From: Kalaharituber pfeilii
Taxonomy: Eukaryota; Ascomycota; Pezizomycetes; Pezizales; Pezizaceae
Assembly (NCBI GenBank): GCA_015179045.1
Contig: WHUZ01000002.1
Span: forward strand, 310,001 to 374,000
DNA: 64,000 bases
Direction of reading: 5' to 3'
Every line of letters begins with the position of its first letter. The stretch's first letter is position 1. The position numbers were made by a program, and so were the translations under genes. The notes beneath the pieces are model-generated. The model was not told where the DNA came from, made no database searches, and saw only the letters and a list, made by a program, of their open reading frames with translations. Shown piece by piece: positions 4,081 through 46,745 of this stretch.

Positions 4081-4124
4081 TTTTTGTCACTTAACCCCGC
4101 TTGCAGCTGTCCGCCATGGCACGG
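4081..4124 (-). mobile_element. Mini-retroposon, tail family B (44 bp)
   Basis: A 44-bp insertion flanked by a perfect 14-bp duplication, caactcaggtggat, at 4067-4080 and 4125-4138. On the minus strand it begins ccgtgccatggcgg, runs through the family B hairpin to gcggggttaagtgac and ends in five A. It contains nothing but the LINE-type 3' hairpin and A tail. Confidence 0.85.
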
Positions 4125-6514
4125 CAACTCAGGTGGATATCCCCAGCATCTCTGGGTAGGCCCGTGGCAGACTGGGGCACGGGGTGGCGACACCAGCGGG
4201 CCGTACTAGGAGGCAAGGGCCTGCGGCACTGGCAGTACAGGCTGGGGAGGACCGACGGACCGGGATGTAGATGGTGTGGAGAAGAGGAGGAGACCACAAC
4301 CCATGTACTGGACAGATGCCGGGTATGGAAAAAAAAAAAATGGCTCGGGGAAGGGACGCACTGCTCAGGCCACCAGAAAGGGGCGAAGGGGATGTGGACG
4401 CACTCGGAGCATTGATGGATTGGATGGAACGGTAACCGTTGGGATGGTGTATAACCGCACCGTGCAATTCTCACGAGTGGGGAGGAGGAGGAGACGACGT
4501 CACACATCTGGGACAGGTTGGGGAAGGGGACTCCCTGGCGACACTGATGGGGTGGATAGGATGGAACTGGGGACGTGAGCAAACCGAGAGATGCTTTGTA
4601 TATCCCATTTTCCATTTATCTCTTTTGTACCTAATATCGCGAATAGCGCATAGGACGGCACGCGATTAATGATATATATTTTTTTAAAAAAAAGTCCACC
4701 CTCTGTAGCCTGACCATCATACCTCATGGCCGCACCAGCCCCCTCCTTCCCTTTACCATCTGCCTTTTCGTTGCCCTCTATTCCGATATGTGCCTTCACC
4801 CAGGCGAGTTTCACGGCCCCTCGGCCCCTAAACCTCTGCCTTCTCTCTGCAGTCAGCTCCACCACACGCACCAGGTCTGCAGTCCTCGCTTGGTCTGTTC
4901 TCCCTGCATTCCTGACTGCACTGATTGCCGCTTGGGAGTCCGTGAGCAGCAGCACCTTTGTCCTATTATCGACAGCCTCCAGGGCCCCTTTTATCCCAGC
5001 AACCTCTCCATCCCATACCGTTGCCTCCACACCAACCCACCTGCTCCCCTCTGCCTCACCTGCTACCACCTGCTGTCAGCACCACCCACCATCTACTCCT
5101 CCTTCCTCACCGCAGCTGCCATCTGTGAAGATGGCCACAGAGTCCCCCTTGGCCTCCCTTATGGCCTTCTTCCACTTAGTAGGGGAGTCCTCCCTGTCTA
5201 GCTTGAAGTCTAGGGCCTCCACCTCTGCCACTCATGGTACTGTGCGCCCCCAAGATATTCTCTCCTCCTTATCTACCTCCAGTACGCTGGCAATTTTGCC
5301 AGCTACTGACTCGAATCCATCATCCTTCTCTGTGGCACACCCCAGGCTGAAATTCCTCCAATCCCCCTCTCTCCTTCCCTGTCTAGGTTTGACATCTCGG
5401 CCCCTCTGAAGCTCTCGGGCCAGAGATCTCTCTTATTAATCTTAGTGCGTACCTCGCCTGACTCTGGTCCAAGATTGTGGATACGCTTTCTACACCTGCA
5501 ATAGCCTCCACCTTCACCCTAGAAGTTCCCTGAACTGGTCCTGTGCATTTTCGATGGACCTGGTGTGGTGGTAACCACAGTACCGATGGAAAGAATAAGG
5601 GTAAATGCGTGCCGGAACGCCACTCGTCGGTGGAGTATATGATGATGCGTATATATGCTAAAGAAACGAGCTCATATTTAAGAAGCAAGATAGGGACGTG
5701 TAGGTTTGAATGGAAGGCGAGGGTGGCCTATAAATTGTATGTAGATAGGACTGTATAGCAGAGACGCATATGAATACGCAGATATAGATAGACAGACCAG
5801 ACATGCACAGACAAGGCAATTGACTAATCTTCTTTTATGATCCTTTCTTGACATTTGACCATTGAGACTGCCGTTGAGACCTCGTTCCGCCAGCTCTAGA
5901 TACCGGTACCCTGTGCAAGACAGTGGATGCTGTTGAGCCTTTATTACACTGGTACTGGAGCCTCTCGAACTCCTTCCGCCATGTCTTTCGGCCCCTCCAG
6001 CAAATTTTGGAACCCTATAGAGCCACTGTTTCACCATGAAAGTGGGCTCATTCCTCACTGCGAATTTCCTAACCCAGAAAGTGCCCAAGAGATTTCTGGC
6101 TTTGTCAAGACGGGTTTTCCAGTGGTGGTCGAAATCGAGTGTGCTGCCGCATATTACTCCCAACCACCTGCTTCGCTCTACCTCAGTCCTCTCCTTCTTC
6201 TTTCCCATCACAAGTATCTCCTCCTTCGAGCTCTCTAGGGGAAGCTCGTATAGCTCTGCTACCTCTCTCACTGCCCTCGCAATTCAGTCTCCAATTTGCC
6301 CACATCTTCTTCCCAGTCCACAACCACACAGTTGAGGTCGTCTACAAACAATGGCAGTTCAATCTTACACTGACTCTTTTGTTAGTTGTGCTGCTTTCAC
6401 TCCATCTCCTGATTCTCCTCCAGTACTAGTGCCATGAAAATCAATAATACCACTAGAGACAGTGGTGACTCCTGCGGCACACCTACATCACCTAGCCATC
6501 CCATTCGACGTCAT

Positions 6515-7316
6515 ACTGTAGTAGCGCTAGCGGACATAATGCAGGCAAGAGACCCCCTTTTCAGCAACCAACAACTCGGGGACAGGCCGCACAGAGGGGT
6601 CGAAGACCTACAACGGCAAGTGCTCAAGGAGATAAGAGGTCGGCTGGACAGGAAGGAGTGGATAGCTCTGGTCGGCGGCGACGTGAAATCTGCCTTTAAC
6701 TTCCTAAGGAGGGAGAGAGTGGTCGCGCGGATTCAGGGGGTTGACAACAACCTAGCGGCCTTCATAGAGGGCTTCCTCCAACCCACGACGTTCCACTTAT
6801 GCTGGGACGGCCGGAGAAGGGCCGCAGCAAGAATGACGGATGGCACACCTCAGAGGGCTCACCTCTCTCCCCAGTCCTATTCCTGGCAGGGATAAAGCAA
6901 ACGGTAGAAAGGGCGAATCGGAGAGCCTTCATCCCAACGTACGTTGACAATTTTCACTGCGTCATCTCCGACAAATCACTGCCGAAGTGAGGAGGGCTAT
7001 TAGGGTCTTCTAGTAAGCGAGGCGGTAGAAGAGAGTATAGTCTGGACCAAGCAAAGTCGGAGGTGAAAAATGTCACCCTTTCGAGCGGAAGGAACGATTC
7101 AATTTCATCGACAACTACTTCTACAGAACGAGCGCTTGGAAGAAGACAACCTTCCGGGCACATCCAGAGGACGTAAGTTACATCAAAGCGAAGCTCGGGA
7201 CCGCCCGAGAAAGAATATCACCTTCATTGTAGAGAATTCAGAAGATTGCGAGTCGTTTCCCCAAGGTCAAGTTTTCAGAGTTTTCTGAAGAGTCCCTACA
7301 CAATTTTGAGGAATAG
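6515..7316 (+). pseudogene. LINE reverse transcriptase fragment (family A type)
   Basis: Plus-strand ORF2 remnant. VEDLQRQVLKEIRGRLD leads into the palm motif GGDVKSAFNFLRRERV (about 6674-6720). It continues with LQPTTFHLCW, a damaged SPVLFLAGIKQTVERANRR block and the catalytic box as TYVDNFHCVIS (6940), where the second Asp of the usual DD is Asn. Beyond 7000 the thumb region is out of frame. The left edge abuts the minus-strand LINE near 6510. No 3' tail follows, so the copy is truncated at both ends. Confidence 0.7.
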
Positions 7317-8290
7317 GGGCAGTTACACCTAATTGGTGCTAGCACAGCCCCGGCGGTGTTGATTGACCTATTGATTTAAACCTGAAAGGGAATACGGTTA
7401 AAAATAGGCAATACCTGCCAAATACAGCAAGGCGCGATCAGCAGTGACATACTATATAAGGTAGTGATACAAGTGGCAGGTTTCAGAAATAGAAATAAGT
7501 TAAGAAAGTAGAAAGAATGTTGGAAGAAGTAGTACAGGGAATAGAATTCCTAGGACCAGTAGGAGATAGATGAATGGGGGAGGTGTATGTGATTGACAGA
7601 AACGAGGTATGATGTGTGGATGAGATCCATATATAGGAAAGAAAGGATCGGTGGTTAGTAAGAGTAGGAGAGACAGGGGATATAATTATAGTAAAAGAAA
7701 AAGTAGAAAGGGTATAGAGGAAGGGCGGGGAGTATAATGAGCAGCTTGCTATAATCAAGTAGTTGAGAAAGGATACTATTGCAGTAGTATAAAGAAGGGG
7801 GGTACTGGAAGTAATATGGATGAAAACTAGAGATTTAACTAGAGTTGGAGAAGTAGCAGTGGTGGTCAGATACTGGAGTGCAGATGCAGCTATATTTAGA
7901 AGATATGAGGAGGAGAAGGATAGGATTGTGATTGAGAAGGAGGAAAAAGTCTTAGTATATGCTACTAGAGAATGCATTACAGTGAAGAAGGAGCCTATAG
8001 TAGTTTTCAAGAAACAGCAGGTTACTCTAAGGATGATGAGAGTAATGATGAGTTGGGGGAGGAGAGAAGAAGCAGAAAGAGAAAGGAGTGCCTCACTATA
8101 TGAGGAGAGGAGCAGAAGAAGTTAGGGGAGGAGGAGAGAGATCAAGGGGATTAGAGACTCACAACCAGACTTTGAGCCGATAGCCTCGATCTTGCCAATA
8201 GTGCACGAAGAAGAGAGAGGAGAGGTAGAAAGAGGGGAGGAGGAGGGAGAGATTGAGGGAGGAGCTAATGAGATAGAGGAAGGTGAAGAG
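7317..8290. other. Purine-skewed degenerate stretch, no gene recognised
   Basis: From about 7480 to 8290 the plus strand is strongly rich in A and G. Long open frames on both strands are low-complexity (Glu/Arg/Lys-rich on +, Ser/Thr/Leu-rich on -). A stretch around 7820-8125 reads as a possible decayed coding region, but I recognise no domain. It abuts the 3' LTR of the chromovirus. Confidence 0.4.
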
Positions 8291-8803
8291 TGTAACATCG
8301 GCGGCTGGGCTTGGGCGGAGATCTTGCCAAGGGGTACAATTAGCTTGGGTATCGGCGGCGGTTCGGTGGCTATAGGTCAAGGACTACGGCAGCGGGGGCT
8401 TGGCGGCTAGGGGTCATGGACTATAGCAAGGGCAGTGGCGGAGAAGTAGGAGAAACCAGACAGGTCTATTGATCAACTAGACAATAGACAAGGAGAAGAA
8501 GAGCTATCTACAGAGGCGGACCTGGGGCCCTTATATGCTTGGAAATTGACATAGAAAGGAATACAGGACTATAACGATATGAAAAAGAGAATCTGCAATG
8601 CAAGAGTAGCAATAGTGATGCTAATATTGGAAAGCATATCAATGAGCTATCAGAGGGCTAATCAACCAGACCGGGACAGCTTGTCAAGCCTTTCCGAGTC
8701 AGCTATTAGTAAGGTCTCACCTTCCGGCTTGGCACATTGGCTCGGCTTGACTTGTCGGCTGTGGAAAAGGATGATATCGATACGTGCGTAGGTGGCTGTG
8801 ACA
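8291..8803 (-). repeat. 3' LTR of the chromovirus
   Basis: 513 bp, starting TGTAACATCGG and ending GGCTGTGACA on the plus strand. It matches 10968-11480 along its full length with scattered transitions such as cggctg versus cagctg. Confidence 0.85.
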
Positions 8804-9057
8804 GTATCCCCCCCTCTAAGTGGCGAGCACCTGCGAGGCCTAGGGCTTCGGTTTCGGCTTATTTGGATACTGCTAGTGAAAGATTTTTACTAGATCAGGT
8901 GCATTCTCCAAGTCTGCAGCAGGCTGCCAAGAAGGCTCGTCATAACCTTTCCACTTCACCAAGTACTACAGATGATGTCGATGGAGCCTCGAGTCTAGAA
9001 CAGCCTCAACTTTCTATTCTTCTTCACCATTAATGATAACATGCGGCAGCGGCGGTT
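8804..9057 (-). pseudogene. Decayed integrase chromodomain and polypurine tract
   Basis: The minus strand just after the GPF/Y module reads NGEEE-stop-KVEAVLDSRL, the start of a chromodomain in which the usual Trp codon is TAG. It then shows further stops before KNLSLAVSKY. The stops fit G-to-A or C-to-T decay. A purine-rich run next to the LTR (minus strand of 8804-8820) is the probable polypurine tract. Confidence 0.6.
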
Positions 9058-9312
9058 CTACTTGTCCTGGTAGTGGATCTTTGGCTGCAGGTTCCAATAA
9101 GGATGCATGGAACAGGGATGGATTTTCATCGTGTAGGGAAGTTCAAGCCTATAGGCATGAGTGCCAACAGCTGCCAGCACTTTGAATGGGCCCACTTTCT
9201 TGTGGCCGAGTTTCTTGCAGGGTCGTTGAGTACTCAGGTACCTGCTTGATAACCAGACATGGTGTCCAGGTAGGAGTCTTGCCCTGCCATGGCGAATAGC
9301 TGCATGCGGGGT

Positions 9313-9347
<35 letters not shown>

Positions 9348-9982
9348 TAGGAGTCTCAGTGCTGGGATCTTACTGTGGTTGGCATACTCAGCTTGCCGGA
9401 GTTGGACATGCTGTATTTCGGCCTTTAACATCCCATGCAGCTCAGTCAGCTTATTGACATGATCTTTGGCATTGAAACAGGCTATTCCTCTAGCAGTGGT
9501 AGTAGTAGCGGCTGTGGGCATATTGTCGGGGAAGGGATCAATGAACCATGGGTGGAACCTGAAATTTGCTTGGAATGGAGATATTTTGGTAGACTCAAAA
9601 ACATGGTTGTTGGCTGCGAATTCGGCCATAGGTAAGAGCTTTAACCAATCATCTTGCTGATAGCTAACATAGGCCCTTAGGTACTGCTCTATGATGGTAT
9701 TCATTCTTTCTGATTGTCCATCTGTTTCGGGGTGGTAGGCTGTTGATAGCCGAGCTTCAATATTTAGGAGCTTGCATAGGTGTTGTCAGAATTCGGAGGT
9801 AAACTGGGGGCCTCAGTCTGATATAATTGAATGTGATAGGCCATAGAGCTTCCATATATGGTTGAGATACAGCTGGGCGAAGTCTTCGGCGGTGGCAGTT
9901 TTCATTGTTGGGCATAGATATCGCATCTTGGTAGGGCCTCCTGGAACATAGGAGGGATGTGAACTTGTGTTTGCAGGTCAAG
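9058..9982 (-). pseudogene. Gypsy integrase C-terminal remnant with mini-retroposon
   Basis: The minus strand reads integrase core and C-terminal segments. MNTIIEQYLRAYVSYQQDDW and LPMAEFAANNHVFESTKISPF fall at about 9580-9704. After the inserted mini-retroposon come HVWLSSRYLSTQRPCKKLG and VGPFKVLAAVGTHAYRLELP, the GPF/Y module, at about 9100-9260. Upstream (9757-9981) the frame is broken. The domain order is that of Ty3/gypsy integrases. Confidence 0.8.
9280..9345 (+). mobile_element. Mini-retroposon, tail family B (34 nt + A32)
   Basis: The insertion is flanked by an 11-bp duplication ggtaggagtct (9269-9279, 9346-9356). The body, 9280-9313, starts tgccctgccatggcg and ends gcatgcggggtc, followed by 32 A. 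The bases CCCTGC and GCGGGG can pair to close the hairpin. It splits the integrase remnant. Confidence 0.88.
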
Positions 9983-10194: not shown

Positions 10195-10930
10195 CTAGTC
10201 GACAAGACAGGCAAGCCAGTTAAATTCTATATAGTAATTGAGGACATCCTTATTACTCTGCTTGAGATTGCTGAGTTGACGGCTTGTGGTTCTCTGAGGG
10301 TTGGGGTCCCCAAACACTTCATCTAGGACATCGAAGAGAGCCGTGATACTGGTTAAGGTAATGGTGTTATTGTGAATGTAGGGTTGGACTTGAGACAAGG
10401 CCTTCCCTTTGAGGAGGCCTATGGCATAGACAAGCTTATGATTCTCAGTAGGGAAGAGTTCGGGGTTGCCTAGTAGCTTGAGTTTGACCATGGTCTTGAA
10501 CGTCTTTAACAAATCTCGAAATCCATCAAATTTAGTAGGGTCCGCTACTTTGGCAGCTCGATGGTGGTGATCAACAGGTCCAGATATTGAGGTGATTGAT
10601 AATACCTTAATTGTTTGGTGAGCATCATCCAACTGGGTTTGTAGCATTGATTGTTGGTCGATGGTAGAATCAAGCTAATCTTGGAGCTTCTTGATCTAGT
10701 GTTGGGTAAGGATGAGTTCGTCCTGCAGCGAGGTGCCTCTAGCATTCATAGCATTTGCAAAATCAGAGATTTCCTATCAATATGTCTGGAATTCAGTTGA
10801 ATTGTCAGGCATGGGCTTAATTTCCCAAGCTTGCAGGCAGGTGACAAAGTCGGCAGCATCAGAGGAGGGCATTGGAGCTGGAGAGGATGATGCATCAGAA
10901 GCAGGCAGGCTAATGGAAGGTATGGATGCT
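10195..10930 (-). pseudogene. Gypsy gag (capsid) remnant
   Basis: The minus strand encodes a Ty3-type capsid-like segment: KVADPTKFDGFRDLLKTF, LLGNPELFPTENHKLVYAIG, GKALSQVQPYI, ALFDVLDEVFGDPNPQRT and ALSQ/LKQ-type blocks, ending YYIEFNWLACLVD. An upstream Pro/Ser-rich segment (10777-10950) is probably the gag N-terminus. Stops and a frame break separate the parts. No zinc knuckle is found because the deletion begins nearby. Confidence 0.75.
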
Positions 10931-10967
10931 AATTGTACCGGTTGGCGGGTGGGTGGGTCCGTTGTAA

Positions 10968-11480
10968 TGTAACGTCGGCGGCTGGGCTTGGGTGGAGGTC
11001 TTGCCAAGGGGTACGGTCAGCTTGGGTATTAGCAGCAGTTTGGTGGCTATGGGTCGAGGACTACGGTGGCAGCAGCTCGGCGGCTAGGAGTCACAGACTA
11101 TAGCAAGGGCAGCGGCGGAGGAGTAGGAGAAACCAGACGGGTCTATTGATCAACAAGACAATGGATAAGGAGAAGGAGAGCTATCTACAGAAGCGGACCT
11201 GGGGCCCTTATATGCTTGGAAATTGACATAGAAAGGGAATACAGGACTATAATGATATGAGAAGAGAATCCGAAATGCAAGAGTGGCAATAGTGATGCTA
11301 ATATTGGAAGGCATATCAATGAGCTATCAGAGGGCTAATCAACCAGACTGGGACGGCTTGTCAAGCCTTTCCGAGTCGGCTATTAGTAAGGTCTCACCTT
11401 CCAGCTTGGTACGCCGGCTCGGCTTGACTTGTCGGCTGCGGAAAAGAATGATATCGATGCATGCGTAGGTGGCTGTGACA
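10968..11480 (-). repeat. 5' LTR of the chromovirus
   Basis: 513-bp direct repeat of 8291-8803 (TGTAACGTCGG to GGCTGTGACA). It lies upstream of gag in the minus-strand sense. I could not recognise a conventional tRNA primer site next to it. Confidence 0.85.
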
Positions 11481-12039
11481 TATATAGAAAACAAAGGAAA
11501 TGATAAGAAGTACATAGATGGCCAAGGAAATGACTAAAAACGAGTAGAAGCATTAGGAACCATCAGCAAAAAAATTGTTTGCGTTACATGCGTCAGACGC
11601 ACTAACGCCATGGGACGTCAACCGCCTATCCCAGTGACAGAACTTTTCCGATGCTGCGTCTGGACGACTTTCCAAGTCGGCCGTCCTCCTCAACGTTGAG
11701 TATTTTCTCTGGCCTCCTCAACTACAAACTGATATTCTTTGCATTATCAACTACGGACCAGTATTCTTTGCATTATCAACTACAGACTTATATGCTCTAC
11801 GTTATCAATTACGGACTGCATCGTCAAATATGACCTGAATTAGTACTCGGCTACTCGCGCCTCCCGCGCTTATTGCACAGATTCTACCGCGCCATAATAA
11901 CATGTTTGACAACCACTTGTTTATTCGTTAAATAACTAGCTATGCCGGTCTATATACAGGTGCCCTTTCATGATTCCACCATTCCATGCCATCAGCTCTC
12001 ATACTACTGCTCCCGCATATGGTCATCCTGCCGCTACAC
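11481..12039. other. Intergenic AT-rich sequence with a short tandem repeat
   Basis: No gene is seen. About 11715-11820 holds roughly three copies of a 28-30 bp unit (cagtattctttgcattatca-like). Confidence 0.5.
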
Positions 12040-13058
12040 CCTTGAACGCCCTGCAATACCTGTTAATTGAGCTCATTCTACCTCATCTCGCGCCGTCGCG
12101 TAGGACCTCCCGTACCTCTCAAATTCGACTCATTCTGCCACATCTCGCACAGTGGAAATCGACCTAGAGAACCTGTTAAATTGAGCACATCTCGCACCAT
12201 CAACCGGGACCTGTCATTGATGTCAAATTCAGCTGATGTCGCCTCATCGCTTGCCGTCGAGAGAGATGTGCCCAGTTAAATTGATCTCGTGCCATCGTAT
12301 AGGATCTGTCATACTAGTCAAATTCGGCCCATTCTGCCACCTTCCGCGCTGTCAAAATGGGCCTGCAGTACCTGTAAATTGAGCTCATTCTATCACATCT
12401 CGCGCCGTCGATAGGACCTGCCGTACCTCTCAAATTCGGCTCATTCTGCCGCATCTCGCTTGGTAGAAATAGACCTGCATGACCGTTATATTGAGCTCAT
12501 TTGCCATACGAGAGAGATGCTCATACCAGTTGAATTGGCCTCATTCTGCCATACGTTGCGCCGTTGTATTGGACCTACCATTCCTGTTAAATTGAGTTCA
12601 TTCAGTCATATCTCGCACCATTGTATAGGATCTGTCATACCGGTCAAATTCAGCTCATTCTGACACATCTCGCACAGTAGAAATGGACCTGGATAACCTG
12701 TTAAATTGAACTCATTCTGCCACATCTCGCGGGGTGGATATGGACCTGCAATACCTGTAAATTGAGCACATTCTACCACATCTCGCGCCGTCGTGTACGA
12801 CCTGCCGTACCTCTCAAATTCGGCTCATTCTGCCACATCTCGTGCCTCGATTGGAACCTGCGATACATGTCAAATTCGGCTCATTGTGCCATCTCTCGCA
12901 CTATCAAGAGAGATATGCCATACCTAGTAAATTGAGCTCATTCTGCCATATCTCGCGCCGTCGTATAGGACCTGTCATACCAGTCAAATTCGGCTCATTC
13001 TGCTACCTCTCGCACCGTCAACCCTCGCCGTAGCCCATAGGGCGGCACGCGAGTACTG

Positions 13059-13106
<48 letters not shown>

Positions 13107-13400
13107 GCACCGTCAAGGAGACCTTCCATACCTGTAAAATGCTGCGCCGTCAAGTGGGACCTATAATACCTGTTAAATTTGAGCTCGTTCTGCCATATCT
13201 TGTGCTGTCGAGGAAGGCCTACCATACCTGTTAAGTTCAACATCTTCCGCCATAGAGGGAGGGCTGCCATACCGGTTAAATTCAGGGCTGTCGTACCTGT
13301 AAAGTTGAGCTCACTCAGCTGCATCTTGCAGCATGGAAAAGGGTCCGTTGATAGGATTCTGTAGTACTTCTCAGGCCCTCCACTTCTGCCGCACTTCTGC
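12040..13400. repeat. 57-bp tandem minisatellite, about 20 degenerate copies
   Basis: The unit contains ctcattctgccacatctcgc, then gccgtcgtataggacctg and a cataccngtcaaattc-like end. It recurs from about 12040 to 13330, with deletions in some copies. The length equals 19 codons, so open frames recur on both strands with a 19-residue period (for example SSFCHISRRRIGPVIPVKF on +). A mini-retroposon splits it at 13022-13104. The array has no recognised host gene. Confidence 0.85.
13022..13104 (+). mobile_element. Mini-retroposon, tail family A (about 39 nt + A44)
   Basis: Flanked by a 12-bp duplication tcgcaccgtcaa (13010-13021, 13105-13116) taken from the minisatellite. The body begins ccctcgccgtagccc and ends gcgagtactgat before a run of about 44 A. 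CTCGC pairs with GCGAG and GCCC with GGGC, giving a two-tier hairpin. Confidence 0.88.
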
Positions 13401-13952: not shown

Positions 13953-14491
13953 TTCCTCGCAGACCCCCCGTCGCCACCCAAGGCAAGACGAAAGCTCCCG
14001 ACTCAGGAGGAAGCTTTCCGGCGACACCAGGCCCGAAAGGCCTCCCCACAAACCACTTCACCAGCTACTGCAGATGCCACCACCAAGGGGGGAGCCGGCA
14101 TCGTTATACACGGGATCGCGTTGAGGAAGGACCTGGGGAAGGTTAGACAGTGGCTGGAAGCGGCGAATAAGGAGTTGGGAAAGGTAAAGGGAATTCGCTG
14201 GCTTAGGAAGCGGAAACTGTTGGAGGAGGAGGGGAAGAAGACAAGTTCGGTGGTGATCTACCTTGAGAAAGAGGTGGATGTCGAGAAGGTGCGATTGAGC
14301 GGACGGTGGCACAAGTCCGCCCGATATGAGTCGGAGAGGGGGCGGAAGTAGAGGATCATGTTGGGCGTCCCCCCGCAACACTATATAAACCGCGGGCATC
14401 ATGTTATTTAAGTTGCTTACTTCTTTCGTTCTTTTGGAGTTTTTTAAATAAAAACCCTCGCCATAGCCCTTAGGGCGGCAAGCGAGTATTG

Positions 14492-14519
<28 letters not shown>
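13953..14519 (+). mobile_element. ORF1-only retroelement with family A tail
   Basis: A fragment of LINE ORF1 is followed after about 100 bp by the family A hairpin (ctcgccatagcccttaggg at 14458) and poly(A) to about 14519. An approximate 9-bp duplication ccatatggt lies at each end (about 13947 and 14522). No ORF2 sequence lies between ORF1 and the tail. A TATA-like tataaa occurs at 14383 and an aataaa at 14446. Confidence 0.65.
13968..14351 (+). pseudogene. LINE ORF1 C-terminal part, EKA-like
   Basis: The open frame encodes GGAGIVIHGIALRKDLGKV, then RQWLEAANKELGKVKGIRWL, GKKTSSVVIYLEKEVDVEKV and SGRWHKSARYE before TAG at 14349. The IVIHG...KVRxWLE...GIRWL...KTSSVVxYL pattern is that of fungal LINE ORF1 proteins and the EKA proteins derived from them in powdery mildews. 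The gag-like role in RNA binding is inferred from LINE biology. The 5' part is missing, and any in-frame Met upstream (13923) lies outside the duplicated target. Confidence 0.65.
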
Positions 14520-18656: not shown

Positions 18657-19403
18657 ATGAACATATTAACGTGCCCGAAGTGGTAACGATCTGCCCCCCT
18701 GTAACGATCCATTCTCTGGGCACTCCTCGTCATACATTCCTCGCTCTACTACTTATTTTGGATATATTGCAACTATAGAAATTGCTTAACATTATACCAA
18801 TTTGACATCGCTGAATCAGAATTTGCTATCATAATGAGGAAAAAATCAAAATTCCATTATTTACAACCAAATTCATTATTATTCACCTAATTTGAGCTCT
18901 CCCTGTATAGAGTATAGCTCAACATCCTCGAAATCAGGAAAATAATATAGAAAACTAGTAATTCTCATCCATCTAGGGCGGTCTTTTTATTAAAAGTCAA
19001 TATTGCATACACAGATCATGTGGGATGCAGTGCACCTTCAATTGTATAGAAGTAGTTTATGTTCCTGAGCTAATCTCCATACCTTGATCTGACCTTCAGT
19101 GTTCCTAGACTCCTCAAGTGATTCAGGAATACCGGGACTTGAAGTTGTAGTAGTTGAAGCACTAGGGGTGGTAACAGTAACTCCTTCTGAGGTGCCAGGT
19201 ATGACAGAAGAGACCTATGGCTCAAATCTGCTATTGGAACCTTCTTCTACCCACCCCCCCTTCTAGTATTCAGACCCTCCTATCTCATGAACTAAAGATC
19301 TTTCCCAGCCCCAGCCTTGCATGTGAGTTCCTCTATGGTGTCTTTTTGTAACTTGTTCAGCTGCAGCCATCTCTCTCTATTTTCGTTCTTCTTTTGCTTT
19401 GCT
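18657..19403 (+). repeat. Left arm of giant palindrome (about 747 bp)
   Basis: Pairs with 19802-20553 in inverted orientation. The outer end reads gtgcccgaagtggtaacgat then ctgcccccctgtaacgatcc; the inner end is near cttttgctttgct. Mismatches and small indels are scattered. Confidence 0.85.
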
Positions 19404-19801
19404 GTCATGGGTCACCTCGGGTGGCCGATAGAGCGTATATGCGACGTATGCGAAATGCGACAGCAAATATATGGGATGCAGGTGCGTATTGCTAAATGAG
19501 CTATGCAGAGGACTAGTAAACGTCACTAATCAAGTGTTTTTTCACTGATCTGGTGGGATGCGGTTCTCTACCCAAGACGCCCAAGACGTTATATTCACTC
19601 ACTTCCTCCTAAGCCGCCTCGAGCTGAAGTTAAAGCAATACTGGAAATAGAAGGAAAAAATAGTAGGAGATGTCGAAAAGGAAACAGAGAGTACCAGCGA
19701 AGGTCAGAAAGGAGGAAGAGAAACTTCAGAAGGTGCGAAAATACTTTAGGATAAGAAAGAAGCCGCTGATATGCAAAGTAGTTAGCAGCGATGGATCGAG
19801 A
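19404..19801. other. Palindrome spacer (398 bp)
   Basis: Single-copy centre between the two arms. No convincing ORF. Short frames rich in Arg/Lys/Glu may be the decayed end of a transposase, but I cannot support this. Confidence 0.5.
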
Positions 19802-20553
19802 AAGTAAGGCAAAAGAGGAACGAAAATAGAGAGAGATGGCTACAGCTGAACAAGTTACAAAAAAGACACCATAGAGGAATTCACATGCAAGGCTGGGGCT
19901 GGGAAGGATCTTTAGTTCATGAGATAGGAGGGTCTGAATACTAGAAGGGGGGGTGGGTAGAAGAAGGTTCCAATAGCAGATTTGAGCCATAGGTCTCTTC
20001 TGTCATACCTGGCACCTCAGAAGGAGTTACTGTTACCACCCCTAGTGCTTCAACTACTACAACTTCAAGTCCCGGTATTCCTGAATCACTTGAGGAGTCT
20101 AGGAACACTGAAGATCAGATCAAGGTATAGAGATTAGCTCACAAATATAAACTACTTCTATACAATTGAAGGTGCATTGCATCCCACATGATCTGTATAT
20201 GCAATATTGACTTTTAATAAAAAGACCGGCCCTAGATAGATGAGAATTACTAGTTTTCTATATTATTTTCCTGATTTCGAGAATGTTGAGCTATACTATA
20301 TACAGGGAGGACTCAACTTAGGTAAATAATGATAAATTTAGTTGTAAATATTGGAATTTTGATTTTTTCCTCATTATAATAGCAAATTCTGATTCAGCGA
20401 TGTCAAATTGGTATAATGTTAAGCAATTTCTATAGTTGCAATATATTCAAATAAAAGTAGTAGAGTGAGGAATGCATGACGAGGAGTGCCCAGAGAGTGG
20501 ATCGTTACAGGGGGCAGATCGTTACCACATCGGGCACGCTAATGACCGTTCAT
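19802..20553 (-). repeat. Right arm of giant palindrome (about 752 bp)
   Basis: Inverted copy of 18657-19403. On the plus strand one stretch of the arm (about 20000-20130) reads open as PGTSEGVTVTTPSASTTTTS and onward to a stop, a Ser/Thr-rich tail that could come from a transposase C-terminus. Confidence 0.85.
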
Positions 20554-20787
20554 ATGAAGATCGAATTCAAAAAAATTCACAGATTGACGGTGGAAGGAAG
20601 AGCCTTCAAGTACAGTCCCTAGACAAAAGTCTTGGTATCTAACGCCATTTTTCTTGGCACCTCGAAATGCTTTTGACGAAGTTCATATCTCCACAACCCA
20701 TTACTCAATTATAGAACTTGCACCTGTGATTCATGCAGCTTTGTCAAAAGTATCAAAAAAGTTGCAGAAGTAGTTGGGATAGCTATA

Positions 20788-21522: not shown

Positions 21523-23298
21523 CTAACGTATTGGGATATGGTACGTACCGTATAATGACAGAAATGACATGGCACGTTCAATTCGCTGCAAATCAGCCCC
21601 CTCGGCATTAAATTTCCTCTGCCGTGCTGCCCTTGATATACGTATACGCCCGCCACCACGTTTAGGCCCTTGCCCTGTACCTGCCCGTGAATTCTCTGCA
21701 GTTCTAGGATTTGCCTGCTGCTCTGCAGCCTTCTGCGCTTTGGCAGCTTTTCGCTCTGCTGCTTTGGCAGCCTTTTCGGCATCTTCAACCTCCTTGCCTG
21801 CAATACGAGCTTTCTCACGTTCAATATAGGCGCGGTCGAGAGTGCGGGGGCCCTGAATTTGCTTAGTTGAACGCGGCTTCACAGTCTTACCATTACGCAG
21901 CTGTTTGAGCGTCTCGGCATTTGGTTCAACTATACGATGCTGTACAAGCTTGCGCTCAAGGTAATCACGATAATTGTACACCACCGCACGGGTATTTGGC
22001 GTCAAGTCCAGTTGTGATAGCTCGGTGCGGAGGGTAGCTACCTTCATAGGGGTATTGGTAGGCTCTAGTTCAGGTAATTGGAGTAATTTTGCCTCAGTCC
22101 GCCCAATAACCTCCTCCGGCCGTAGTGGCCATATGCCAGTAGCTTTGAATGCACTAGTGATATTGGATTTGGTGAGTGCAGCATGTCTAGCAGTGCATAG
22201 GACCTCCCAGAATTCCACCTTTCCAAATGGTTGATCAGGGTGGTTGTATATGAAGTCTTGAAGCCCAGTCCGGTATGCTCGTGTCAGCGGTGAGAAACAC
22301 CCTACGTCGAGAGGCTGCATAATGTGTGTAGAGTGCGAAGGCAGGCAGAACATGATGATATTATGGTCTAGGGTATACTCCACGATAGACCAGCTGACAT
22401 GTGATGAGTGCCTATCGACAATAAGCAGGCGATATATTGGCTTGGTGGTGGGGGGGGTAGCGGGTCGGGTATGCGGTTCGAAATGCTTTTTCATGAAGTC
22501 TAGTCCAAGTTCATCATCCATATAGCCACTGGGTGATCGGCTAAAAGATGCTGGTGTATCATGTACACCACCTGTACCGTAGAAACCAGCACAATGCACC
22601 TTATTCTTCCATACAATAAATGGTGGTATCACGTGACCTAAGGAAGAGACACTCTCGAGGACTGTGCAGAATTCTCTGCTACCATCTGTGATAGCTATCT
22701 TATGTTTTGTAGATGCCCTAACGATAGCTTTTTGCCTACCTACTGCTAGGCCAATAATGACACCCTTTTCATCGCAATTCCACAGATTTTCAGGTAGTAT
22801 ATGGTATTGCCGGAGAAGACTACGTAGCTTGATGTACCATAAACGCTGTTCCTCTATGTCCGCTGTAGCTTTCGCACGTATCTTCTCTAGGTATTGGACG
22901 TACTTAAGCTTGATATCCGGGTGTCTTGAGAGGAAACGGTTGTGCCAGTTTATACCGGGAGGATCAACCTTCTTCTTTCCCGAAGCTCTCTCACGCAGTA
23001 GAATATATGCCATCGACCGAAGCATAAGTACCGTGACCGGGAAGCCCATATCTGACATTTTTTTACACCAGTCAACAATTGCATCTTCCTCTGCTGTAGT
23101 AAGTAGCTGATAGTCCTGTCGGCCTTTGGCGCGGCTTTTCTGTACTCCATGGCATCGTCGGCGTAATGTTGTAGGATTAACACCAAATGCTTTAGCTATT
23201 TTCGCTTTTGACACATCTGGATGCTTATAAGCATAGTCTATAGCACGTGCTAGCTGACTGTCATGAAGCTTTAGCTCTTTTTTCGATTTGGGAGGCAT
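21523..23298 (-). CDS. Pogo/Fot-family transposase, intact, 591 aa
   Basis: The enzyme would excise and insert its element at TA by a DDE cut-and-paste reaction in the nucleus. From N to C: a psq/CENP-B-type helix-turn-helix (about residues 14-50, LARAIDYAYKHPDVSKAKIA), then a Tc5/CENP-B-type second DNA-binding domain (about 65-140, INWHNRFLSRHPDIKLK). The DDE_1 catalytic core has D176 in NCDEKGV, D295 in LLIVDRHSSH and D331 in MQPLDVGCF. D295 and D331 are 35 residues apart, the DD35D spacing. A Lys/Ala/Arg-rich basic C-terminal tail (about 500-580) follows. The length is usual for the family and the start MPPKSKK is typical. No frameshift or stop is seen, unlike every other element here, so it may be recent and possibly mobile. 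Confidence 0.93.
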   Translation of the reverse strand: MPPKSKKELKLHDSQLARAIDYAYKHPDVSKAKIAKAFGVNPTTLRRRCHGVQKSRAKGRQDYQLLTTAEEDAIVDWCKKMSDMGFPVTVLMLRSMAYILLRERASGKKKVDPPGINWHNRFLSRHPDIKLKYVQYLEKIRAKATADIEEQRLWYIKLRSLLRQYHILPENLWNCDEKGVIIGLAVGRQKAIVRASTKHKIAITDGSREFCTVLESVSSLGHVIPPFIVWKNKVHCAGFYGTGGVHDTPASFSRSPSGYMDDELGLDFMKKHFEPHTRPATPPTTKPIYRLLIVDRHSSHVSWSIVEYTLDHNIIMFCLPSHSTHIMQPLDVGCFSPLTRAYRTGLQDFIYNHPDQPFGKVEFWEVLCTARHAALTKSNITSAFKATGIWPLRPEEVIGRTEAKLLQLPELEPTNTPMKVATLRTELSQLDLTPNTRAVVYNYRDYLERKLVQHRIVEPNAETLKQLRNGKTVKPRSTKQIQGPRTLDRAYIEREKARIAGKEVEDAEKAAKAAERKAAKAQKAAEQQANPRTAENSRAGTGQGPKRGGGRIRISRAARQRKFNAEGADLQRIERAMSFLSLYGTYHIPIR

Positions 23299-32978: not shown

Positions 32979-33038
32979 TTTTTTTCTTTTTTTTATATCA
33001 TTACTCGCATGCTGCCCCTGTGGGCTATGGCGGGATAG
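32979..33038 (-). mobile_element. Mini-retroposon, tail family A
   Basis: On the minus strand: ctatcccgccatagcccaca, a hairpin, then atgcgagtaatgatat and an A-rich tail with one G. Flanks are cacgggcct and cacgggctt (9 bp, one mismatch). It is the same minimal unit as at 13022. Confidence 0.7.
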
Positions 33039-40346: not shown

Positions 40347-40411
40347 CCCTGCCATGGCCAAGTGCTACAAGCGGGGTTATGTGATTTTAAAAAAAAAAAA
40401 AAAAAAAAAAA
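40347..40411 (+). mobile_element. Mini-retroposon, tail family B
   Basis: Perfect 13-bp duplication cccacccttgaca (40334-40346, 40412-40424). The body begins ccctgccatggccaagtgct and ends agcggggttatgtgatttt, followed by about 23 A. It sits in the LINE reverse transcriptase. Confidence 0.88.
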
Positions 40412-40486
40412 CCCACCCTTGACATCCTCTATGACCCAAACAGCACCTCCCTTCTGTGCCAGTGCTCTCTGGCTGATGACTACAGC

Positions 40487-41071: not shown

Positions 41072-42479
41072 GTTAGACCCGAAGAAGGCGGAGACATTAA
41101 CCGTTGGAGTAAAAGGCCCGGAGTACCACATGCTAGGACTGACAGTCCACTGGGAGCTGAATTTTACAATCCACCACAGGAGAAGACTGGCCCTAGGGAA
41201 GGCAGCATGGGGAGTAGCATCCCGGCTAACGCAAGACCGATAGCCACATGGGGGTGCTGGGCGTGGTACGAGTATGGGAGAGGTTCGTCGAAGGGGACGA
41301 AGCTGCGGGAGATGGAGAGGTGGCAATACGGGGTGGCGAGAGGGCTAACGGGAGCACCATGGGGGACAAGAAGGGACGTGGTAGAGGGGCTAGCAAACCT
41401 GGAGTCGGTGGAGACATTTGTCGATTACGTGAACATAAGGGTAGAGGCAAGGGCGTTGAGATTCGGAGAAGAGAAGATAAGACATCAAGACGTGGAAGCT
41501 CGATACCTGAGGGGTTCGACGAGTCATCGAAGCCCACTGACAATAGCACTGATTAACTCACTCCCGGGGGATGCGGAGAAAGAGGAGTGGGAAGCCCAGA
41601 TAAGGACAGCGAGAGAGGAGGGCTGGAGCGAAGTACCGGTATACACAGACGGGAGCAGGATAAAGGAGAGATCGGGGGCAGGGGTTGTTGAGGGGGGCGA
41701 GTGACGTCCATATACCTTGGGGGAGAGCGACGGTGAATGATGCGGAACTATTGGCGATCAGCGAGGCAATGAGGTCGAGAGGAGAGACATTGATACTGAC
41801 AGACTCTATGGTGGCGATAAGGAATATTCAGAAAATCGCAGAAGGTAATCCAACGTACCAGGGAGCTAGTCAGAAGGCCAGGGAGAGGTGGGAAGAGAGG
41901 GTAGAGAGAGGGGACGAGGATGTAGCCATCATGTGGGTGAAGGGGCATAAGGGGATAAAGGGGAACGAAGCAGCAGACAGGGCAGCGAGGATAGGAACAG
42001 CCCTACAGTATGAGGAAGAGGTGATAACGGAGTCAGGATTAATTCAACAGGCGAAGAGGGGAAGAGCGGCGGAGAGAGACAGGCTGGGGATGAGTTACCG
42101 CCCACTGCGGAGGCTGGGACACAGAGTGTCAAAGATAGCGGGACTGATAGGGGGCAAGGGACTGAAGGCGTGGAGACACAAGATAGGGGAGGCAGGGGAC
42201 ACGAGCTGCAGATGGTGTGGAAAAGGGGACGAAACGTACGCGCATCTGATGGGGGAGTGCAGGACGTGGAGGAGGAGATGGCCAGGAGGGGACGAGGAGC
42301 TGAGGAGACCGAAGGAGTCGAGGGACGGGGACCCATTGCAGGGTACTGGACCTCTTGGAGGAGCCGGCATAGAGGAGTGATGACGGAAGGAGTGAGTGTA
42401 CACAGTTTTCATGTAATTAAATATCGCCATAGCCCGAAGGGCGGCAGGCGATCAATGATATAAAAAAAAAAAAAAAAAA
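41072..42479 (+). mobile_element. 5'-truncated LINE (tail family A)
   Basis: A duplication aaggatgga (41063-41071, about 42480-42488) bounds it. ORF2 remnants in order: ELDPKKAETLTVGV, GLTVHWELNF, GTRRDVVEGLANLES, then RNase H VPVYTDGSRIKE (about 41635). Next come ILTDSMVAI, IMWVKGHKGIKGNEAADRA (about 41930-41985), and zinc knuckle CRWCGKGDETYAHLMGEC (about 42210-42260). The 3' UTR ends in atcgccatagcccgaagggc, then ggcaggcgatcaatgatat and poly(A). Frameshifts lie at about 41225 and 41700. Confidence 0.82.
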
Positions 42480-42613
42480 AAGGATGGATTGAAAATGAAA
42501 TGCTGAAAAAATTTTGAACACTGCTTCTTATTCCCACTGGTATTGCTTCAGATAATACTACTCCGCCTCATAGCGAAAATGTCCTTATCTCTCCAACATG
42601 CCCGTGAAATCTT

Positions 42614-42725
42614 TTTTTTTAATATCATTCATTGCGTGCCGGCTATGCCAGCTTTTTTTTTTATATATATATATATATCATTAATCGCGTGCCGCCCTAA
42701 GGGCTATGGCGGTATGCCAGCTTGC
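42614..42725 (-). mobile_element. Mini-retroposon (family A variant) holding a second one
   Basis: The minus strand reads gctggcatag, ccggcacgcaatgaatgata and poly(A). Possible flanks are tgaaatctt (42605-42613) and tgaagtctt (42726-42734), one mismatch. The unit at 42655-42712 lies inside it. Confidence 0.5.
42655..42712 (-). mobile_element. Mini-retroposon, tail family A (58 bp)
   Basis: Perfect 11-bp duplication tatgccagctt (42644-42654, 42713-42723). On the minus strand the body starts ccgccatagcccttagggcg, continues to cacgcgattaatgatat and ends in an AT/A tract. Confidence 0.82.
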
Positions 42726-42734
42726 TGAAGTCTT

Positions 42735-43764
42735 TATCTTGCCATCAAGGCATTCTTAGGTTCAAGATATAATATTAATGAAGCTGTATATCATTTAGTA
42801 AGTAGCTTTTCTAATCTATAATATGGTATGACGAATATATGTAATAAGATATGGTACTTCGAAAAAGTTAGTAATAATACTTCTTTTGCTAAGAATTGTA
42901 ATTGCCTTAAGCATCATTTACCTCCTCAATTAGACCTTACTGGTATTGGAATATGTTCATAGTTGTAAAGGCATGTTATAGTATATTGTATTAATATACT
43001 GAAGCATGAATAGCAAGCTGCCTCATTTCCTAGCTACGAGATTCAGCTTCAGCTAAAGATATGGGCAATAATTCCATATACTGCATGCTCAATAATTATT
43101 CAATATACGATTTCTTATCAACATGTTTTGTGCACCTTTTATCTTCTCGAGGAGCCTATTCCACTTTCACTTATTCACTCTCATTGGCTTCTGAACAAAT
43201 CTGTATGGGATCTGTATCAATATTAAGTTATAGCTCTTGACATTGCCCAAACTTTACCATCTAAACCACTTGTAATACCTAAACATCTACTGGATATTCA
43301 AGGTTGACATAGCTTTGTTCAGGCAGCATATAACCTCAAGGGTTAATTTGCTACTCAACCAGTTCATGTAGCAGTGCACCAAATTCAAGAGTTTCAACAG
43401 ACAGTGCAAGCATTGGAAAATTGTTGGAAAACTCCTGGTTTTCTAACTATCATTTTGCCTTCTCCTGAACCAAGCTTCCCGACAAAGTTTCGAACAGCAT
43501 CTAGTACACCAATCTTATACAACCCAAAGACTAAAGGCATTAACTCTGCTGGTAGACCTACTGGTACTGAAGTGGCTTAACCAGAGTTAGCTAAACATCA
43601 AACTATTCAAGAGCATGATAACATTGCTGACAATCACACTCAGGATGTTATTGTTCTGCACTCATGCAAAATAGTTCAGGAGAATACTGAAGCAGATACC
43701 CAAGTATTGGAGGCGTGGTACATAGATAACGGTGTGAGCATGGGTGTGGACATGGGTTGTACGT
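42735..43764. other. AT-rich interior of the 2.9-kb element
   Basis: No transposase motif. Weak open stretches near 43200-43720 on the plus strand could be decayed coding sequence, but I recognise nothing. Confidence 0.4.
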
Positions 43765-43863
43765 AGCAATAGACTAGCGGTCACCTTAAATATATATTTA
43801 GCTAGCGTCAGTTATCCCTGCCTATGTCCAGTCAGAATACTGACTGGACAGAGACATTTCGGT

Positions 43864-44065
43864 CAAACCGGCCGGCAAACCTGAGGCGGCCGGCAACCTT
43901 GAGGCGGCCGGCAACCTTGAGGCGGCCGGCAACCTTGAGGCGGCCGGCAAAATTGCGGCGGCCGGCGAACTTGGGGCAGCCGGCAAGCTTGAGGCAGCCG
44001 ATAAGCCCGAGGCTGGCAAGGTCGAGGCAGCCGGCGGACTCAAACCGGCCGGCAAACTCGCGGCT
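43864..44065 (-). repeat. 18-bp minisatellite within LINE ORF2 linker
   Basis: About 10 copies of an 18-bp unit (ggcggccggcaaccttga on +), diverging outward. On the minus strand they encode repeated AGRLKV in the same frame that leads into AGRFEVTDVPT, the start of the RT region. The unit is GC-rich in an AT-rich setting. Confidence 0.85.
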
Positions 44066-44078
44066 GGCGAGCTCGGAT

Positions 44079-44136
44079 TTTTTTTTTTTTTTTTTTCTAT
44101 CACATGACCCCGCTTGTAGCTGTTCGCCATGGCAGG
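44079..44136 (-). mobile_element. Mini-retroposon, tail family B (58 bp)
   Basis: Perfect 16-bp duplication gctggcgagctcggat (44063-44078, 44137-44152). On the minus strand: cctgccatggcgaacagcta, then caagcggggtcatgtgatag and about 18 A. Confidence 0.88.
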
Positions 44137-44203
44137 GCTGGCGAGCTCGGATACCGAAGCTTGAAGTTCCTTTGCACCAAGCCTCTCACCTTTTTCTTTT
44201 TTT

Positions 44204-44745
44204 TTTATATCAAGTAACCCCGCTTACCGATTCTCGCTATGGTAGGGCTCCTGGGCCGAAGCCCTTAATGCTCGGAGGCAAGCAGTTAAACGGACACTCA
44301 ACTGATTACATCTACCCGCCTCCCTCCTTTCTCTATGCCTTCAGGGATTGGAACAGCTACTCGAGGATGTTCACTTCTTCGCCATTCTCCTGCCTCTCTA
44401 CCCACTTTCCTTGCTCCCCGTCCTCCCACCTTTCCACACCCTGCCGGGTATGCCGCCTCTCCGCATCTGAACGCTAGATGGCCCGCCGTTTGTCGCTCCC
44501 TGCACCCGCACTCTACCCCTGTCGCCCTTCCGATTTTTGCCTCCCAGTCCTTCGCCATTCTTTTCCCCGTCCTCAGCCTCGTGAAGGTAGTGGCCACCTG
44601 TCTGCCCCACCTCATGACTTCGCATGCGCCATACCCCGGCTCTCTCCTCTCCGCTGCTTTGAGCCTCTTCCACTTCTGTCGTAGCCCCCCTCCGTGACTA
44701 CCGCCTTCCCACCGCGTCTTGTCACCTTATTCGCCTCATATCAAC
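44204..44745 (-). mobile_element. 5'-truncated LINE end (tail family B) inserted in the larger LINE
   Basis: The minus strand carries an ORF2 C-terminus (TTFTRLRTGKRMAKDWEAKI; zinc knuckle CGCRERQTAGHLAFRC at about 44440-44500). A 3' UTR and tail ccctaccatagcgagaatcg, then gtaagcggggttacttgat and A-rich DNA follow. The likely duplication is cctctcacctt (about 44190 and 44745). Removing it rejoins the EN/RT linker of the larger LINE. Confidence 0.68.
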
Positions 44746-45310
44746 CCTCTCACCTTCTCCACCTTCTCCTCATCTGTTTTCCATGCTTCACCATTGTCCT
44801 CCACCAGATCTCCCATCTTCGCTCTCAGTCTCTACAGGTCCTTGGCCACTCTTACAACATCCCATGGGCCCTTGGAGCTGTTCTCCTCTATGAAGCGAGT
44901 CCGGCACTTCCTCTTTTTGCGCCTTATGATGTATTTCAATGTCTTTACCTGCTCCTTCCACCTCAGCAGCCTGCTTCTCTCCCACGCTTTTGTTCTCACT
45001 CCTTTTCCCCCTCGCCTCTCCTTTCTTGCTGCTCTTTTATCTCATCACCCCACCACAGTTTACTTCTTGAAGATGCATGCACTGTCCTCACTAGGGTCTC
45101 TCGCAATTTGCATGTCTTCTTATATGCAGACTCTCCCTCCAATTCCTGGAACCACTTCCATTGGTCAGCCACCTTCTTCTTTACTATCTCTCTCACAAGG
45201 TCCTCTGCCCTCTCCCAATTCATTCCTACTCTCCTAGCTACTACCTCCTCAGAGACCTACCAGCACCCACTGACTGCTGCATGGTCTCCACCATTCCACT
45301 CTTACGGCGG

Positions 45311-46349
45311 CCTGGAGTTACAAAGTGCCAAAAGTTGCAAAGTGGAAACGTCGAAAAGCCCGTTGCAACGCCCGTACCACAACAAAAATTACACATCTCA
45401 CACAACATACGCCGCCAGAGATAAATGCCCTGTGCAATTTATATTTCATAAAAAATGAAAATAAAAATAAAAAAAAATAAAAAATTGAAGCTAACTGATG
45501 ACAAAATATATTTCAGTCCTAGCATGAACATCTTGTAACGTCAACCACCTATCCTCCCACTAATTCTTATCCAATGCCATATTATCAGGATTTTGTATAT
45601 GTTCTTCATTTACTTCTGTTGGAAGTCGTTGCCAATTGTATGAGGCTAAGGGTTTTGGTAGAAGTGATAATGTAGATACTATATTACCTGCCTGTACATG
45701 GTGATAGACTGCTTCTCATAGTTGACAATAGATATCTTGATGTGGATCTGACTAATGAGTTGGTAACTCAAGATGGTGTATTTGAAGAAAGGAGTTCACC
45801 TAAATACAGGCCAATGAAGGTAGGTATGCATTAAGATTTAATAAGGTACATGAGTTAAGGTAAGCTTTAACTCAATAAGAGAAAATATATAGTTAGCATA
45901 TCAAGCTTGTAATGGATCTAGTAAATGCGGAGAGTTACCGTCCACTAGGTCAAAAAGATACTTGACTAGCAATTCTTGCTAGTTCTCTGCATAGCTTATA
46001 TAGTTACTCCCTCAAGTCTAAAGTTGTGGAGAGAAGAGAGAAGAATTGATTTCGCTCGCTTGGTTATCTTGGGAGCTTACACTTTTCCGGTGAAATACAG
46101 ACCTTTTATCCCCTCTGACACCCCTTCGGCCTTCGTTTTTGGTATCTTGAATTTTAGCCCTACGAGGAAGGTTGAATTTTGACCCTACGAGGTTTGGCTT
46201 ATCGACCGGGGGTGAGAGGCTACTGTAAATCATTACATCAAGCATAACAGTCAGATTGACTCCACTAAGTCTTTCACTAACAGACTTGAGCCTCAAGACA
46301 GGTACTTTTGGCCAATGTTTAGCACTGGTTCCTGTGTTTTTCGATGCTG
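45311..46349. other. Intergenic, no gene seen
   Basis: A-rich run at 45440-45490. A TGTAACG at 45536 and a cattaca at about 46230 could be the ends of an old LTR, but the flanks do not match. No recognisable ORF. Confidence 0.4.
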
Positions 46350-46684
46350 GCTGTCCAAGCTATGAATCTATTGCTCCCATCCATGGCGGGAGTGCCAAGA
46401 AGTCAGGGGCACTCCGTAGTAGTGTGCTAGCAACTGAGCAGGGAGCTGTATATTTCCTCGAAACTTCATCCCGAGGGGAAACTTGAGGAGTTGGTATTTT
46501 GGAATAATTGTAGATCAAAAGACTCAGTGTACTGCGAGCTTTCGATCTGTGTAGGTTTCGCTGTGGGCGACGTTGTGGCTTCCGAACACTCCTTCTGTTG
46601 AAGTGGTTGTTGCTGAATTTGCTTAGTCTATTCACCACCGCCAACGCTGCCTTTTAGGCCTACTAGTTGATATGTAGGTCCCTT

Positions 46685-46745
46685 TTTATATATATATATA
46701 TATATATCACGTAAACCAGCTTATCGCTACTCGCTATGGCAGGGC
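46685..46745 (-). mobile_element. Mini-retroposon, tail family B with AT tail
   Basis: 13-bp duplication atgtaggtccctt / atgtagctccctt (46672-46684, 46746-46758; one mismatch). On the minus strand: gccctgccatagcgagtagc, then gataagctggtttacgtgat and a (TA)n tail in place of pure A. Confidence 0.8.

Follow-up and report, generated by a model that had tools for sequence, protein, structure and literature searches.

Insertions of a bare LINE 3' hairpin with an A-rich tail in the genome of Kalaharituber pfeilii

How does a copy of a long interspersed nuclear element (LINE) come to consist of nothing but the hairpin at its 3' end and an A-rich tail? The question is raised by a 64,000-nucleotide window of the genome of the fungus Kalaharituber pfeilii (contig WHUZ01000002.1, here C112:310001-374000), for which a preliminary description had claimed eight such insertions, all beginning near the base of the hairpin. 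On balance we favour the reading that a bare LINE 3' hairpin of 34-40 nucleotides (nt) with its A-rich tail is copied from a short RNA, which would have been cut at the stem edge of LINE transcripts. All eight insertions were found, most of them flanked by a target-site duplication (TSD):

4081-4124, minus strand: hairpin-B unit with a CCGTGCC start and a short A tail; perfect 14-bp TSD at 4067-4080 and 4125-4138
9280-9344, plus strand: hairpin-B unit with one extra 5' T and an A tail; perfect 12-bp TSD, AGGTAGGAGTCT; empty sites elsewhere
13022-13104, plus strand: hairpin-A unit, CCCTCGCC..., with an A tail; perfect 12-bp TSD
32979-33038, minus strand: hairpin-A-like unit with a few extra 5' bases; weak, with a perfect repeat of only 7 bp
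40347-40411, plus strand: hairpin-B1 unit starting from the base, with a tail of TATGTGATTTTA(n); perfect 13-bp TSD
42655-42712, minus strand: hairpin-A' unit (GCGAT form) with an AT tail; perfect 11-bp TSD
44079-44136, minus strand: hairpin-B2 unit (GCCCTGCC...GGGTC); perfect 17-bp TSD, 3 nt of it overlapping the unit
46685-46745, minus strand: diverged hairpin-B unit with an AT tail; 13-bp TSD with one mismatch

Seven of the eight have TSDs of 11-17 bp (six perfect, one with a mismatch), where 9-16 bp, mostly perfect, had been claimed; the unit at 32979-33038 falls short of this. Judged by eye, the units begin some 0-5 nt away from the base of the hairpin, where 0-7 nt had been claimed. The unit at 9280-9344 sits in a repeat, and at seven other places both flanks of the unit abut, with the 12-bp target present once and the unit absent. 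These empty sites are on C37, C327, C76, C326, C90, C257 (left flank broken further out) and at C329:326587 (lower identity). At an eighth related place, C329:4211, other sequence lies between the two flanks. The window units are true insertions. Similar direct repeats at about 8290-8870 and 10970-11480 (by eye), with a gag-like frame at 10195-10647 between them, are probably a long terminal repeat (LTR) retrotransposon hosting the 9280 unit. The target of the 13022 unit is a degenerate short-unit repeat array (cattctgccacatctcgcgccgtc-like, by eye) at about 12000-13300.

We searched the whole assembly (78.0 Mb, 360 contigs) with exact patterns and read 228 loci of 0.3-3 kb. The 3'-arm core of hairpin A, GGGCGGCANGCGAGTANTGATA, occurs at 1,976 exact places and that of hairpin B, AAGCGGGGTNATGTGAT, at 1,069, the reversed pattern giving 0 in each case, which is not what chance would produce; the variant A' (GCGAT) occurs at 676 places. 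By count, the genome holds hundreds of stand-alone hairpin copies of about 40 letters with A-rich tails. What had been called a family is more than one: the units belong to at least two hairpin families and to several LINE lineages. A single master family is rejected, as a number of loop variants have LINE bases upstream in some copies and lack them in others. On contig C1 (2.99 Mb), 24 of the 25 listed exact A cores lie within 108-488 kb and one lies at 2.57 Mb, so the hairpins are clustered there.

Loci for a census of 5' ends were picked by the 3' arm of the hairpin and the bases after it. These patterns do not contain the 5' half and thus favour no 5' end upstream of the 3' arm. The sample is not random, since it takes the places listed first on contigs C1-C10, and searching with exact cores favours young copies. 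TSDs were called by seeking the sequence directly after the A-rich tail, which the caller demands, anywhere upstream (about 450-1,400 nt per locus). The score cut-off was 8, or 7.5 in the set of complete B hairpins described below and in a pooled pass over A and A', where a near TSD was chosen if its score was within 3 of the best. Hits with a short flank were dropped (limits of 60-250 nt upstream and 80-110 nt downstream, varying by analysis), and loci L001-L008 were left out of the A counts, having been chosen by whole-unit similarity. With swapped flanks, false TSD calls at score 8 amounted to 1.05% (A), 3.4% (A') and 1.1% (B). The loci that lack a TSD are of more than one kind: many run on into sequence common to other copies, and others have unrelated upstream sequence.

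Among 50 TSD-supported B insertions (73 loci), 34 begin at the base of the hairpin, 5 at that of the next structured domain (-58/-59) and 11 are scattered as far as -1160; one of the scattered starts, L160, is doubtful, its TSD repeat lying in the LINE itself. The 35 distinct TSDs of A (96 loci) place 11 starts at the base, 4 in the loop and 20 elsewhere along the sequence. The weakest sample is that of A' (13 TSDs from 42 loci, 11 of them distinct), with 5 base starts, 2 loop starts, 3 scattered and 1 odd. With the frequency of scattered ends over 440 nt as background, the base window (8 nt in B, 5 nt in A) is enriched about 250-fold in B, 49-fold in A and 140-fold in the small A' sample. The first version of the TSD caller gave a similar picture for B (33 base, 6 next domain and 11 scattered, n=50) and found about seven loop starts in A, L024 and L086 among them, which the second caller missed. 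The pooled A and A' pass found 51 TSDs among 139 arms: 17 at the base, 8 in the loop, 3 at -22 to -29, 22 further upstream and 1 odd. In the loop group, and again in the group at -22 to -29, two of the starts have a TSD in common.

Ordinary random 5' truncation, the shortest copies being noticed for their recognisable hairpin, would leave scattered ends, and such ends exist (11/50 in B, 20/35 in A). Against it, the 34 B starts in the 8-nt base window compare with 0.14 expected from the scattered density, in a sample drawn by the 3' arm and the bases after it. The B base peak rejects truncation combined with ascertainment, and we regard this explanation as very improbable indeed. The shared start that had been set against random truncation is borne out, at 34/50 in B and 11/35 in A, and the genome-wide plot of 5' ends that had been proposed as a check has sharp peaks at the hairpin base in A, A' and B, with no smooth spread. 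The description of all starts as lying near the base was too narrow: the main peak is there, but A units also start in the loop and B units at the base of the next upstream domain.

These minor starts have a structure of their own. The second B start is the first base of a predicted AAGCC/GGCTT or TAGCC/GGCTA stem, whose outer pair is A-T or T-A in eight of nine distinct sequences, and the second A start, mostly AGGGCGG, is the beginning of the 3' arm directly after the loop. Base, -58 and loop starts are thus all stem borders, as expected of cuts in folded RNA. RNA folding predicts a two-part stem-loop in both A and B, with hairpin-alone energies modestly below those of shuffles (z -1.3 to -1.9). 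The A stem is CUCGC/GCGAG. Over 30 of the 88 distinct A hairpins, chosen for variety, 95.6% of cells are paired, a value reached by 0 of 500 shuffles; one pair is changed on both sides (C-G to A-U, 7 of 30 sequences), and one such pair is reached by 478 of 500 shuffles. The B hairpin folded alone has a 7-bp lower stem that begins at the A of ACCCTGCC (G in the B2 lineage).

To judge from their frames, B hairpins attached to longer sequence belong to LINEs: same-strand upstream frames with RNase H were present in all seven loci scanned. For attached A hairpins, one remnant in the window has RNase H ahead of the hairpin. The TSDs of 46 B units are 10-17 bp long. These 46 sites and the 16 sites of longer B insertions have the same TSD mode, 13-14 bp, and the same C/T|AA target preference, the AA part of which may be inflated, as the leading A of a TSD can be shared with the tail. 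Units and LINEs have their 3' ends in common. Together with the TSDs, the similar targets, the empty sites and the RNase H frames upstream of attached B hairpins, this supports insertion by LINE machinery, and the LINE reverse transcriptase (RT), named as mobiliser from the start, keeps that role.

The lineages differ in what they leave behind. Among the first 100 listed B hairpins starting ACCCTGCC, the GGG of the LINE stands upstream in 24 of 25 with a GAACA loop (with GGGGTTA) as against 13 of 28 with CCAAG and 7 of 14 with CCACG. The genome-wide counterpart of this comparison is 823 versus 1,158, from patterns that differ slightly at the 3' end. Even where the hairpins are closely similar, the share of units varies widely from lineage to lineage. 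Tandems of the form hairpin-A(n)-partial hairpin occur in L011 (minus strand, oriented position ~808), L109 and L216; the start of the downstream copy lies within the hairpin (TGGCGAGC or (A)TAGCCC). These tandems may have arisen by template jumping, the enzyme passing from one short RNA to another's tail.

How exact the starts are was read from 88 complete B hairpins, with 20 of the loci retrieved by a search for the complete B2 hairpin; a TSD at the base was called for 46 of the 88. In half of these (23/46) the unit begins precisely with the first paired base. Another nine share 1, 2 or 3 nt with the target (5, 2 and 2 units), where chance for 32 units gives 6, 1.5 and 0.4, so that overlap is at chance level. 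The other 14 carry 1-4 extra 5' bases. Only three of the ten single extra bases are G, the base found there in attached copies, and the longer extras are AT, TT, AGTC and TTCT, none ending in GG; the extra bases are mostly not LINE sequence. As far as the available part of PMC2718515 goes, most full-length ancestral R1 copies have precise junctions, most truncated R2 copies overlap the target by 1-5 nt and truncated R1 copies are mixed, while extra bases can arise at template run-off or in second-strand priming. By this yardstick the B units would resemble full-length copies of a 40-nt template, which is support and not proof.

The favoured reading would work as follows. The LINE protein, or the stem itself, would protect the 3' hairpin and poly(A) of the LINE RNA from nucleases, and the upstream LINE RNA would be removed by cutting or trimming at stem borders before any copying. 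The short hairpin RNA would then be copied by the LINE enzyme at a nicked target, like any LINE RNA, hairpin and tail being all that the enzyme would need for recognition. Both the trimming before copying and the sufficiency of hairpin and tail we infer from the sequences. In the available part of PMC4176376, zebrafish stringent LINE proteins bind their cognate 3' stem-loop through the region between the endonuclease and RT domains, which makes a hairpin-only RNA plausible as a sufficient template.

The preliminary description had left the choice between a discrete tiny RNA and a fixed stop of RT. The precision of B, the chance level of overlap, the non-LINE extras and the dependence on lineage favour a template that ends at the base, and a stop stays as its main rival. 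Such a stop would be abortive target-primed reverse transcription: the enzyme would be held at the 3' hairpin of an intact LINE RNA, fail to go over into elongation and halt at the loop or the hairpin's far edge, leaving a short cDNA to be inserted. One template would then account for the base starts, the loop starts and the preference for the hairpin nearest the 3' end; stem-loops of this type are bound by LINE proteins (PMC4176376, in the part available), and extra 5' bases are also found in longer truncated copies. However, templated overruns of 2-3 nt (GG, GGG) occur in 0 of the 46 B units, and the hairpin, once copied, is gone as a barrier: an RT that has passed the whole of it has no obvious reason to stop at the far edge. 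The yield also varies among closely similar hairpins, as the GAACA and CCAAG loops show (GGG upstream in 24/25 and 13/28 of the first 100 listed places). A stall at the next upstream hairpin is rejected as a general cause, because the next upstream B stem (GGG/CCC) ends 4-5 nt beyond the observed start, too far upstream, and attached A hairpins have, by eye, A/T-rich upstream sequence. An abortive stop therefore seems to us a rather doubtful source of the units.

Several observations weigh against a template cut at the stem edge. Folding B in a 77-nt context adds a G-U pair at -24 that shifts the stem one base earlier; the best structure there has one lone pair beside the G-U, which the centroid lacks. 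The A starts are less exact (-14 to -18), and those in the A loop imply a nicked hairpin or an RT stop. A 5'-3' exonuclease would meet the outer stem first, yet hairpin 1 dominates, so protection by a protein, or an endonuclease, has to be assumed. The exactness set demands a complete hairpin, and starts inside the stem would be invisible in it. The 3'-arm B sample, for its part, has no start inside the hairpin beyond -20, but the base starts of L154 and L158 there have altered first bases or lie 1-2 nt inside. Extra 5' bases are present in longer truncated B copies too (L126, L127 and L129, among 10 with a reference), and these copies overlap the target little. The exactness of the units is thus support for run-off and no proof of it, and extra 5' bases taken as such proof were rejected for the same reason.

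The B2 lineage (GCCCTGCC...GGGGTC) stands apart. Among its 627 exact hairpins genome-wide, 91 have GG upstream, as in copies that continue, where about 39 would do so by chance if all began at the base. Hairpin 2 is joined to the start of hairpin 1 at 74 B2 places. The third stem with hairpin 2, searched with a pattern that leaves out hairpin 1, occurs at 77 places, and TT, the B1 LINE bases at that position, precedes it in 11. In the 27 B2 loci read, upstream sequence is shared only by L173 and L175, both three-stem forms with a TSD adjoining the outer stem, and a parent LINE was not found among them. As far as exact patterns can tell, nearly all of B2 is in the form of a 40-nt piece, the 75-nt form being a minor one, and alone among the lineages it looks as if it were nearly devoid of a LINE body. 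One B2 locus, L180, is nearly without an A tail and has a repeat of 12-16 bp, the upstream copy of which stops 17 nt short of the hairpin; it is a candidate for a tailless or rearranged case.

B2 could on this account be a free, tiny element resembling a short interspersed nuclear element (SINE), with a source transcript of its own (40 or 75 nt) and parasitic on LINEs, the A and B1 units being by-products. The 91/627 hairpins with GG upstream, the TT before only 11 of 77 third-stem places and the single pair with shared upstream sequence among 27 loci, both three-stem forms with a TSD, speak for it. But a promoter or source gene was not found, Rfam and tRNA scans, which covered the window, gave no match, diverged LINE copies escape exact patterns, and TT is not required of a B2 LINE. 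At L122 a related G-start hairpin (GGGGTT) has a B2-like tail and hairpin-2/3-like sequence before it, with no TSD called; a related LINE, or a rare or diverged B2 LINE, may exist. We consider a free B2 element unlikely, more so than an abortive stop.

The window has further LINE-derived features:

14453-14519, plus strand: hairpin of type A with poly(A), for comparison; the sequence upstream resembles that of other attached A hairpins; no TSD called
41685-42481, plus strand: LINE remnant in which an RNase H domain (41685-42380) precedes a 3' hairpin of type A with poly(A)
44196-44250, minus strand: 3' hairpin of type B with further sequence after it (by eye, the 3' end of a LINE)
46727-47290, minus strand: reverse-transcriptase fragment (RVT_1, below the curated cut-off)

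It also has an unbroken frame of 591 amino acids for a DDE_1/Tc5-type transposase (21523-23298, minus strand) and, at about 18690-20560, a long inverted repeat with arms of several hundred bases, for example near 19255 and 19930, which by eye is a fold-back element or one with long terminal inverted repeats. A polysaccharide deacetylase domain is among the encoded content.

Known SINEs carry a head derived from a small RNA (tRNA, 5S or 7SL), with an internal Pol III promoter, ahead of a shared tail. The units are like them in being short and non-autonomous, in having their 3' end in common with a partner LINE and in their TSDs. Unlike SINEs, the tail hairpin is here the whole element: the unit has no tRNA, 5S or 7SL head, and no Rfam or tRNA match was found in the window. 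They are also like 5'-truncated LINE copies in their LINE-like 3' end, A-rich tail and TSD, but their 5' ends are not scattered along the LINE. A or AT tails in the TSD-supported units (the caller itself demands a tail) set them apart from tailless retropseudogenes, and an A tail at one end with TSDs of variable length (10-17 bp, 46 units) sets them apart from miniature inverted-repeat and other DNA transposons.

Described systems come close on single points, as far as the available parts of their reports go. In LINE-SINE pairs with stringent-type LINEs such as UnaL2 and ZfL2 (PMC4176376), as here, a 3' stem-loop is shared with the LINE and the LINE enzyme mobilises the element. Mg-SINE of Magnaporthe (PMC2104539) is likewise fungal and non-autonomous, with a 3' end similar to that of its own LINE, MGL, but it is far longer; an approximately 350-nt 3' fragment is mentioned in that part of the report, and a bare-hairpin form is not. 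Truncated R1 and R2 copies (PMC2718515) have the same 3' end relation as the units, and precise, extra-base and overlapping 5' junctions occur in both, but the units, unlike truncated R2, have one dominant start and overlap at chance. Tailless retropseudogenes (PMC5322556) are also retroposed pieces of RNA with ends at single-stranded regions of the folded molecule; unlike the units they have no A tail, derive from host RNAs by way of L1 and are cut mainly on their 3' side.

No account of LINE hairpins inserted alone from a fixed start was found in the open-access literature, as covered by titles and the starts of abstracts, subscription journals lying mostly outside. We rate the units as a new form of LINE-dependent retroposition. 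A bolder proposal can be made only tentatively: a hairpin RNA of about 40 nt with poly(A) might be a complete and prolific retroposon, with LINE RNAs cut at stem borders, the hairpin and its tail sufficing for the LINE enzyme, and B2 persisting almost wholly as the 40-nt piece or the 75-nt three-stem form, and might then be the smallest RNA parasite of a reverse transcriptase.

The units mark, to near the nucleotide, the minimum RNA that a LINE enzyme takes as a full template in nature. Should their ends stem from cut RNA, the units preserve in the genome the trace of a step at which LINE RNA is processed during the element's life cycle, and they test naturally what length of 3' end recognition requires. 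Should the ends be stops instead, the units reveal that target-primed reverse transcription has a distinct escape step. A 40-nt hairpin with a tail would also serve as a compact 3' module for LINE-based DNA insertion.

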